64,000 nt of DNA from Girardinichthys multiradiatus (lineage: Eukaryota; Chordata; Actinopteri; Cyprinodontiformes; Goodeidae): the NCBI RefSeq assembly GCF_021462225.1, contig NC_061805.1:29467958-29531957 (forward strand), written 5' to 3'. A program made the position numbers and the translations under genes. The notes beneath the pieces were generated by a model that saw nothing but the letters and a program-made list of their open reading frames with translations, made no database searches and had not been told where the DNA came from. Positions 62,577-64,000 of the stretch are shown here, one piece after another. Every line of letters starts with the position of its first letter. Positions within the stretch are counted from its first letter, which is position 1.

Positions 62577-62897
62577 TCATAATACATCATCATTAAGTCG
62601 GGGCTCCACGAAGGGCTTGACCTGAGAAACATGGAACGTGGGGTGAATCCTCATAGAGTTGGGTAATCTCAGCCGTACATCGACAGGGTTGAAGATTTTG
62701 GAAATTGGGAAAGGTCTAACAAATCGGGGTGCCAACTTCCGGGATTCTACCCTTAATGGTAAGTCCTTGGCGGAGAGCCAAACTTTCTGCCCCACCTGGT
62801 ACTTAGGGCCAGGGGTCCGTCTCCGGTTGGCCGTTCTTGACTGAATCAGTGACATTCTGATCATCGAACTCCTGGCCTTTCTCCATATTCTTTGGCA
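62577..62897 (-). pseudogene. Gypsy integrase C-terminal domain
   Basis: From about CQRIWRKARSS on, the peptide matches the end of Ty3/gypsy integrases: SRTANRRRTPGPKYQVG, QKVWLSAKDLPLRVESRKLA, FVRPFPISKIFNPVDVRLRL, and SMRIHPTFHVSQVKPFVEP. It is open to a TAA/TGA-type stop at 62577-62579. It lacks the zinc finger and DDE core, which lie upstream in normal elements. It directs strand transfer and target binding in intact relatives; here it is a fragment in frame with the preceding myosin segment. Confidence 0.9.
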
Positions 62898-63563
62898 CCT
62901 TAGGGAATCGTTCCTGCTCCTGACCTCATTCTCTGCAGTTTTCTTACCCTTCTCCAGTTCATAAATTGTCTTTCCTGTTTCACTAATATGCTCAGTCAAA
63001 TCACTTATTTCCTGTTGCAGGTTCTTGTTCTCCCTCTTCAGGGTCTCCAGGTGGCCCAGAGCTTCTTCATAGGTGTCTTTCATTTTGAATATGTGTGTTC
63101 AAAGCACGCGTCTCCTTCAGAGCTCCTTCCAGCTTGACCTGACTCTCTGCATACTTCTGCTTCCACTCTGCAAGAACCCTGTCAAAGTTCCGCTGCTTCT
63201 TGTCCAGGTTTGCAGCCAGAGCATTAGCTCTCTCCACGTCAATCATCAAGACCTCCACTTCACCCTGTAGCCTCGGTTTGGTCTTCTCCAGAGAGGCACA
63301 TTTCACATTCATGGTCTCGATGGACTCTTCCGCATCCTGAAGACGCCGGGCAAGCTTTTTCTTGGCCTCCTCGAGCTCCTCAGTGCGCTGAATGGCATCA
63401 GTTTCGTACATGGTTCTCCACTGAGCCACCTCGCTGTTAGCCTTGGACATAGCACGCTGCAGCTCAGCTTTGGCCTCCTGCTCCTCCTCATACTGCTCTC
63501 TGAGCAGATCACAGTCATGACGAGCCGAATGAACAGCATGAGCCAGAGCGTTCTTGGCCTTAA
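62898..63563 (-). pseudogene. Sarcomeric myosin heavy chain rod fragment, intronless, captured by gypsy element
   Basis: Minus strand from 63563: IKAKNALAHAVHSARHDC, EEEQEAKAELQRAMSKANSE, VAQWRTMYETDAIQRTEELE, AKKKLARRLQDAEESIE, RANALAANLDKKQRNFD, then (after a 1-nt shift near 63085) MKDTYEEALGHLETLKRENK and NLQQEISDLTEH, ending ELEKGKKTAENE. This is the light meromyosin coiled-coil region of a striated-muscle (fast type) myosin heavy chain. A few further residues, VRSRNDSLR, match a site about 70 residues later in such myosins, so an internal piece is missing. No intron is present across about 220 codons. With gypsy sequence on both sides it cannot be the host gene locus. Confidence 0.9.
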
Positions 63564-63983
63564 TCTTATTAAATACTTCCTTTTTTCATGGTATTCTTGA
63601 GGTACCTTGGATAAATCTGGATAGGTCTCCTCAACCTCATTCTCCACACTGACCTCCGTAGCAGCAGACAAAAGACAACATGACTCAGACCAACCCAGAA
63701 CTTCTTTTCTCTTCCAGTGAATGTGAGGGTTGTGTTTCTGCAACCAGGAGGCCCCTAGGACAACAGGAAGTTCAGGTGAATTTATGATCATGAAGGTTAC
63801 ATTCTCTTGATGATTACCTCCAACTGTTAAGGTAATTTCCTCCATCCCGAGGTGTGAATTGTTCATGCTGTGACCATCCAATGCTAGCACTTTACGTGTA
63901 TCAGAATACGGAATTAGCTTTATGTTCTTAATGGCGAATGCTTCATCCATGAATTCAGTGTCTGCTCCTGAATCAATAAACAC
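63564..63983 (-). pseudogene. Gypsy aspartic protease and start of RT region
   Basis: A minus-strand frame open at 63983 or earlier: MFIDSGADTEFMDEAFA with the Asp-Ser-Gly catalytic motif, VLALDGHSMN, EEITLTVGGNHQENVTFMII, VVLGASWLQKHNPHIHWKR and EVEETYPDLSKVPQEYH. A 1-nt deletion follows the last block, where related elements continue into the RT. The next readable gypsy residues (KEVFNK) abut the myosin junction at about 63565. Distal part of the same open frame (to 63309) is myosin DNA read out of frame. Confidence 0.88.
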
Positions 63984-64000
63984 TGCCCCCTGGAGAGACA

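Follow-up and report, generated by a model that had tools for sequence, protein, structure and literature searches.

How does intronless myosin sequence come to lie inside a Ty3/gypsy retrotransposon? The question is raised by one end of a 64,000-nucleotide stretch (the window, meaning always the whole stretch) on contig C12 of the livebearing Mexican goodeid fish Girardinichthys multiradiatus, where the minus strand carries in order a gypsy protease, an intronless myosin rod and a gypsy integrase C-terminus. An earlier note, made from the letters of the window, had described this order for positions 62577 to 64000 and had proposed that the element transduced a host complementary DNA (cDNA). 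Domain matches and junction positions bear the layout out, although its 3' edge has to be moved, as the element sequence shared with other copies ends at 62595. We find that a gypsy element very probably captured a myosin heavy chain messenger RNA (mRNA) by template switching, and that the chimera then spread through the genome.

In the window the myosin tail match (E 2.3e-21) and the match to the integrase domain SH3_Tf2-1 (E 5.8e-17) are clear, and the myosin frame corresponds to residues 1316-1481 of human myosin-7 (E about 1e-71). Matches to protease domains are weak (best E 0.00067, below the curated cut-offs); the protease stretch shows 54% identity over 155 amino acids to the gypsy polyprotein P0227, to which the integrase C-terminus also aligned.

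Copies of the chimera in the genome

The 1.15-Gb, 72-contig assembly was screened with 34-nt patterns of both junctions, allowing up to 3 mismatches and using the reversed patterns as control. The 5' junction was found at 55 places (26 exact) and the 3' junction at 48 (28 exact), while the reversed patterns gave 0 hits in either case; one 5' match (C20, 3 mismatches) diverges in its final bases. When junctions within 1.5 kb were paired, both were present at 41 places, the 5' junction only at 14 and the 3' junction only at 7, so that 62 places on 22 contigs carry at least one of them. The search for further copies with the same junctions that the earlier note had suggested was thus successful. 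When the window piece was used as query in a DNA search, at least 53 matches were obtained, with 40 out of 1036 first-look candidates scored. Where both junctions are present, the insert lengths form clusters at 667-669 nt (18 places) and 412-415 nt (10 places), and a copy with a 414-nt insert lies at C12:29584916, about 53 kb past the window end.

The note had also advised extending the sequence past position 64000 in search of long terminal repeats (LTRs) and target duplications. Both were found in other copies; the window copy itself is interrupted at about 64885. A complete copy, L035, measures 3893 bp and has LTRs of about 631 bp (95.7% identical) with TG..CA ends and the target duplication TAAAT, and a second copy, L032, possesses both LTRs, one with a deletion, and the target duplication ATTTG. 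In 11 copies that were read at the ends of both LTRs, the target duplication is a perfect 5 bp in 7, agrees in 4 of 5 positions in 3 and is off by one in 1. A tree of 30 copies appears star-like, with pairwise differences of 3.9% on average (1.3-6.3%). LTR-LTR distances range from 0.019 to 0.068 in ten copies with at least 200 comparable sites and are 0.010 and 0 in two with fewer sites. Because the same two junctions recur, and in copies with LTRs and target duplications, the chimera itself has transposed as a unit, and the window copy is a truncated member of the family found at 62 places. Transduction of host cDNA by a Ty3/gypsy element, as the note had proposed, is supported by the LTRs, the donor gene described below and this recurrence of the junctions.

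Two side observations concern the distribution and the ends of the copies. Contigs C24 and C25 have a myosin cluster (near 26.7 and 27.8 Mb) and chimera insertions in common, displaced from each other by about 1.07-1.11 Mb, which is perhaps the likeness that homologous (perhaps sex) chromosomes would show. On these contigs the chimera forms a pair with a spacing of 2.26 kb, located near 29.43 and 30.50 Mb. Furthermore, 19 of the 30 copies examined for this (L001-L030) break within the same 14 nt at about element position 3024-3037, between ..GTGGAGCCCCGACTT and GG. Six of these breaks lead straight into the LTR at differing positions and 13 into other DNA, and among the latter L012 and L017 (C24/C25) have a common flank. 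Where a copy is intact, the breakpoint site is followed by a stretch that is G-rich on the opposite strand, and a deletion with a fixed end and variable length at a possible G-quadruplex would fit the cluster. An end made by integrase was considered and rejected in favor of deletion, as no target duplication was found at L033 and L034, which are cut at the cluster and have no 3' LTR.

Donor gene, junctions and rival explanations

For the origin of the insert we compared 30 myosin loci (L036-L065) out of 52 myosin matches in the assembly. The best donor among these 30 is L053 (C19:24.94 Mb), whose exon pieces are 94.7, 96.3, 96.4, 97.8 and 93.5% identical to the insert, the last piece being 31 nt long. 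The other loci compared reach at most 89% over whole exons; values of 93-96% occur in pieces cut by the locus end (55-86 nt), and the last 30 nt give 93% in several genes. All 30 copies of the chimera are 95.8-97.6% identical to the spliced donor sequence. The majority insert is without the donor introns of 99, 82, 78 and 112 bp, all GT..AG, and the fifth intron, 77 bp, is gone from the copy L079, so that mapping the donor introns onto the insert, as the note had recommended, finds all five in the captured stretch absent. In the chimera ATTAAG-GCCAAG spans a donor exon-exon border, and the template was therefore spliced mRNA. The missing introns and the repeated junctions exclude a gypsy element merely nested in a genomic myosin exon. 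One of the loci compared, L036 (C15:2326644-2327219), is a myosin heavy chain gene with a 1952-amino-acid open frame around the match and apparently an intronless full-length gene; as a donor it was rejected, having an identity of only 71%.

The size of the original capture most likely differs from that of the present majority insert. The note's estimate of about 666 bp holds for the window copy (667 nt), but probably not for the capture itself. The majority insert comprises 669 nt and has lost 204 nt of mRNA at a TGAG repeat. In contrast, L079 on C6 has both junctions and the 204-nt part lost by the majority, and is missing 255 nt at the 9-nt repeat AAGTATGAA, thus retaining continuous donor mRNA 409-873. 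L080 shows the same 255-nt loss as L079 plus the TGAG deletion. Because the insert types overlap, one continuous capture of 873 nt (291 codons) of spliced mRNA is most likely. In at least four copies the 5' junction is shared but myosin is joined to a partial gypsy integrase core; L029 and L030 were read and two more are known only as adjoining matches. Most simply, these would have arisen by later recombination of the chimera with gypsy RNA.

Gypsy relatives without myosin are present in the same genome (40 integrase-core matches scored out of 813 first-look candidates), and parts of five, L074-L078, were read. L074 encodes reverse transcriptase (RT), ribonuclease H (RNase H) and integrase, although its frame is broken at least once and its protease mostly deleted; in L075-L077 the protease runs into RT, and L078 comprises RT only. 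The protease/RT border is uninterrupted in all four pieces covering it (L074-L077), and the integrase border in L074 and, for the integrase side only, in L030. At the 5' border gypsy reads AAGATCAAGGCCAC, with ATC in 4/4 pieces covering it, the donor mRNA GAAATTAAGGCCAAG and the chimera AAGATTAAGGCCAAG. The corresponding sequences at the 3' border are GCTGCCCTAAGGTGCC in gypsy, GATGCCCTGAGGATC in the donor and GATGCCCTAAGGTGCC in the chimera. A random join would share at least 6 bases at the switch with a probability of about 0.0013, a value that applies to the 3' border. At both borders the base that distinguishes the parents derives in the chimera from the 3'-side template (at the 3' border in 28 of 29 copies). 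This is the polarity expected if RT, moving 3' to 5' on RNA, carries the nascent strand to a new template. The note's proposal of template switching from a spliced mRNA is strengthened by the absent introns and by microhomology of the right polarity at both junctions.

The structure, donor, missing introns, junctions, LTRs, target duplications, multicopy spread and RT-bearing relatives can all be read directly in the genome. From the switch polarity, the microhomology and the absence of RT we infer co-packaging and help in trans, as well as an order of events. In a gypsy particle, RT would have copied gypsy RNA from its 3' end, switched, within the region of the integrase C-terminus and at the TGCCCT microhomology, to a spliced sarcomeric myosin heavy chain mRNA packaged in the same particle, copied 873 nt of it and returned to gypsy RNA at AT(C/T)AAGGCCA, at the protease/RT border. 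The product would have lost RT, RNase H and the integrase core while retaining LTRs, gag, protease, integrase C-terminus and chromodomain in one frame. Mobilized in trans by full-length gypsy relatives, it would have settled at tens of places, and internal deletions that kept the frame, together with recombination with gypsy RNA, would have made it diverse.

The classical model of retroviral oncogene capture suggests a different route, in which a gypsy element sat in a myosin intron, a read-through RNA was spliced to a myosin exon, giving the 5' junction, and only the 3' junction was a template switch. Indeed the 5' junction lies just 6 nt from a donor exon-exon border. However, the 6 nt in question, ATTAAG, come from the upstream exon of the donor, and the 99-bp intron that follows them there has been cleanly removed, which places the junction inside an exon and not at a splice site, and it coincides moreover with the gypsy/myosin microhomology. 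A splice-donor origin of this junction, suggested by the exon numbers of human MYH7, was refuted by the donor gene. A read-through RNA starting further upstream in the myosin gene might still be accommodated; we leave this route a slim chance. An accident at the DNA level, with a processed myosin pseudogene of the type made by long interspersed nuclear elements (LINEs) landing in, or recombining with, a gypsy element, would also give an intronless insert, but it appears even less probable: in the junctions read gypsy coding sequence adjoins directly on both sides with no poly(A), the gypsy sequence that would normally separate the two borders is missing, and both insert ends lie inside coding exons in microhomology with the polarity of reverse transcription. 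The window copy by itself, broken and at the window edge, might be suspected to be an assembly or annotation artefact, a suspicion that we discount almost entirely in view of the same junctions at tens of loci, the target duplications, and the presence of the 5' junction in the database protein P0220 of another species, Goodea.

Several points nevertheless weigh against capture by template switching followed by spread as told here. The donor comparison covers 30 of the 52 myosin matches, and a closer donor is possible among the remaining 22. The homology at the 5' border is split by a one-base mismatch into AT and AAGGCCA, the perfect run AAGGCCA being one base off the switch point, so that the switch itself shares AT only. 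The undeleted 3' part of the insert is kept, among the copies read, by L079 alone, which is itself internally deleted, and the 873-nt original, deduced from overlapping copies, was never seen entire. Most copies are decayed, with an open frame in 5 of 25 copies for gag, 13 of 28 for protease, 8 of 30 for myosin and 10 of 24 for the integrase C-terminus. Matching insertions on C24 and C25 make the independent insertions fewer than 62, the Goodea copy is seen on its 5' side alone (P0220), and the family is known here from genome sequence and database proteins.

Coding content and selection

In L032 one frame runs from Gag through protease to the start of myosin (459 amino acids) and, after one stop, continues in the same frame from myosin through the integrase C-terminus to the chromodomain (381 amino acids). 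L035 has a 541-amino-acid frame from protease through myosin to the integrase C-terminus, with gag in a different frame. Pfam identifies Retrotrans_gag, Myosin_tail_1, SH3_Tf2-1 and Chromo in the L032 frames, and its protease match there is weak (RVP_2, E 0.0035, below the curated cut-off). As the note had observed for the window, RT, RNase H and the integrase core are missing in L032 and L035 exactly where myosin sits, and neither copy is therefore autonomous. The family is a non-autonomous LTR retrotransposon of Ty3/gypsy type (Metaviridae-type, chromodomain-bearing).

Selection was assessed by comparing differences shared by at least 3 of the 30 copies with single-copy differences, which served as the neutral yardstick. 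In gag the shared differences are richer in silent changes (22:24 vs 82:191, p 0.026). The same comparison is not significant for protease (12:16 vs 42:100, p 0.19) and for the integrase C-terminus (8:12 vs 23:72, p 0.17), while the pooled gypsy-derived parts show silent enrichment among shared changes with p 0.003. No such enrichment was found in the myosin part (6:18 vs 58:138, p 0.81). With possible CpG changes excluded, the values are 12:11 vs 46:137 for gag (p 0.012), 5:7 vs 26:73 for protease (p 0.31), 3:5 vs 13:50 for integrase (p 0.37) and 2:7 vs 35:100 for myosin (p 1.0), with p 0.0035 for the pooled gypsy parts. Set directly against each other, the shared changes of the gypsy parts and those of myosin do not differ significantly (p 0.10). 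Eleven differences from the donor are present in at least 80% of copies: 8 are amino acid replacements and 3 are silent changes, one of the latter in the 3' microhomology. Our reading of these counts is that the element would have needed its own Gag while the myosin residues drifted; perhaps it also needed a frame through to the chromodomain.

A bolder proposal, which we offer tentatively and consider rather unlikely, is that the chimera is a satellite retrotransposon selected for an open polyprotein of Gag, protease, spacer, integrase C-terminus and chromodomain, in which the myosin coiled coil would be a tolerated spacer or even an oligomerizing module. All five joins that define the family or its subtypes (the two capture junctions, the two internal deletions and the secondary junction to the integrase core) keep the frame, for which the chance is about 0.004 if unselected, reckoned post hoc, and the silent enrichment in gypsy-derived parts, with none in myosin, points the same way. 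Contrary to it, the insert length is not divisible by three at 14 of the 41 paired places, and the contrast between gypsy parts and myosin gave p 0.10.

The window copy, related proteins and known systems

By its outline the window holds a 5'-interrupted and 3'-truncated copy of the chimeric family, whose features are listed in Table 1. The copy extends beyond the window end to about 64885, where it is broken into by a repeat with 201-bp inverted ends, which we take from its end motif to be Tc1/mariner-like. No LTR of its own was found within the stretch read, and the copy is decayed, with a 1-nt frameshift where the protease ends and 2 nt deleted from the myosin part. Copies with the 2-nt deletion do not form one clade in the tree; a single frameshift subfamily was therefore rejected in favor of slippage or recombination.

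Table 1. Features of the chimeric element in the window
Feature	Positions in window	Strand	Remark
Chimeric Ty3/gypsy element, portion within window	62595..64000	-	95.3% identity to complete copy L035 (L035 positions 728-3029)
Gypsy aspartic protease, 3' part, ending ..KEVFNK	63565..64000	-	1-nt frameshift near 63587
5' junction gypsy/myosin	63564..63565	-	Within microhomology AT(C/T)AAGGCCA
Captured spliced myosin heavy chain mRNA (rod), 667 nt	62898..63564	-	Without four donor introns
2-nt deletion at AGAG repeat, frameshift	63081..63099	-	Same place in 5/30 copies
Internal join, 204 nt of captured mRNA gone relative to L079	62916..62931	-	At microhomology TGAG
3' junction myosin/gypsy	62897..62898	-	Within microhomology TGCCCT(A/G)AGG
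Gypsy integrase C-terminal domain (SH3_Tf2-1)	62595..62897	-	Chromodomain and 3' LTR missing in this copy
3' truncation point	62594..62595	-	In breakpoint cluster common to 19/30 copies examined

Beside the chimera, at window positions 59724-61348, lies a Tc1/mariner-type element with inverted ends and a 237-amino-acid transposase frame (HTH_Tnp_Tc3_2, DDE_3). Candidate mobile-element frames, judged by eye to include a Helitron-like helicase, an element with RT and a recombinase-like part, LINE-type RTs and a retrovirus-like pol fragment, were noted at 4445-11059, 21036-25570, 32248-34569, 39616-40764 and 49491-50384. A viral contig scan gave 11 pattern matches, of which 0 were confirmed.

Pieces of the family seem to have entered protein databases. 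Besides the 5' junction, the Goodea atripinnis protein P0220 has the WRTKYE/ESQ deletion in common with L079 and L080, and the IKTKNAL change in common with L080. According to passages in PMC11286751, the Goodeinae radiation began 18 million years ago, and lineages including Goodea date to about 17 million years. Because the protein from Goodea has the 5' junction and one internal deletion in common with copies in Girardinichthys, the capture is probably older than this radiation of about 17-18 million years, unless horizontal transfer occurred. In Girardinichthys multiradiatus itself the short 'myosin heavy chain-like' proteins P0001, P0121, P0123, P0125 and P0129 resemble pieces of the element, with a junction visible in all of them except P0123. 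In the databases these five and P0220 go under the names 'myosin heavy chain-like' or 'myosin tail domain-containing'; they are apparently retroelement pieces, and their annotation should be corrected.

In defective transducing retroviruses of birds and mammals a host cDNA replaces viral genes and a helper is needed. The chimera likewise carries host cDNA in place of element genes, but it has neither env nor an oncogene and is a germline retrotransposon with a structural muscle gene. The known structure of the maize retroelement Bs1 permits a further comparison: it is an LTR retrotransposon with host gene retrocopies, as in the chimera family, but a plant element, whereas the chimera is a vertebrate Ty3/gypsy element that has kept gag and chromodomain and exists in tens of copies. 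Passages in PMC5408686 describe fragments of host genes (plasma-membrane ATPase and others) in Bs1. The same source, in a portion on Tan et al. 2016, reports LTR-mediated retroposition in metazoans by template switching at microsimilarity between LTR element and mRNA, with zebrafish, mosquito, chicken and Drosophila as examples. Microsimilarity-guided switching is what we propose for the chimera as well; in that portion of the source the products are described as retrocopies, whereas here one chimera gave rise to an amplified and diversifying family. A further comparison is offered by the crocodilian endogenous retroviruses (ERVs) treated in PMC4299795, sections of which report capture of nectin3 by CrocERV31 and of KIT-ligand by CrocERV29, a nectin3 capture that predates a host speciation, and purifying selection on the captured frames. 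As described there, these are also vertebrate LTR elements with captured host mRNA in several copies; in contrast to the chimera, however, they are endogenous retroviruses in which nectin3 replaces env, while the chimera lost RT, RNase H and the integrase core, and no purifying selection is evident in its myosin part.

That LTR elements can capture host mRNA is already established. In our searches of open-licence PubMed Central (PMC) papers we found no report of this family or of any myosin-bearing gypsy element. What is new here is a transduction by a vertebrate Ty3/gypsy element that turned into an amplified and diversified family with its capture history still legible. One genome retains the donor gene, RT-bearing gypsy relatives, a near-original copy, derived subfamilies and secondary recombinants, and the steps of transduction can therefore be read: two minus-strand switches guided by microhomology, the loss of pol, the spread, deletions within the insert and renewed recombination. 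The family accounts for several 'myosin heavy chain' genes that appear to be falsely annotated in fish, and it provides a clear vertebrate Ty3/gypsy case of what transforming retroviruses do.
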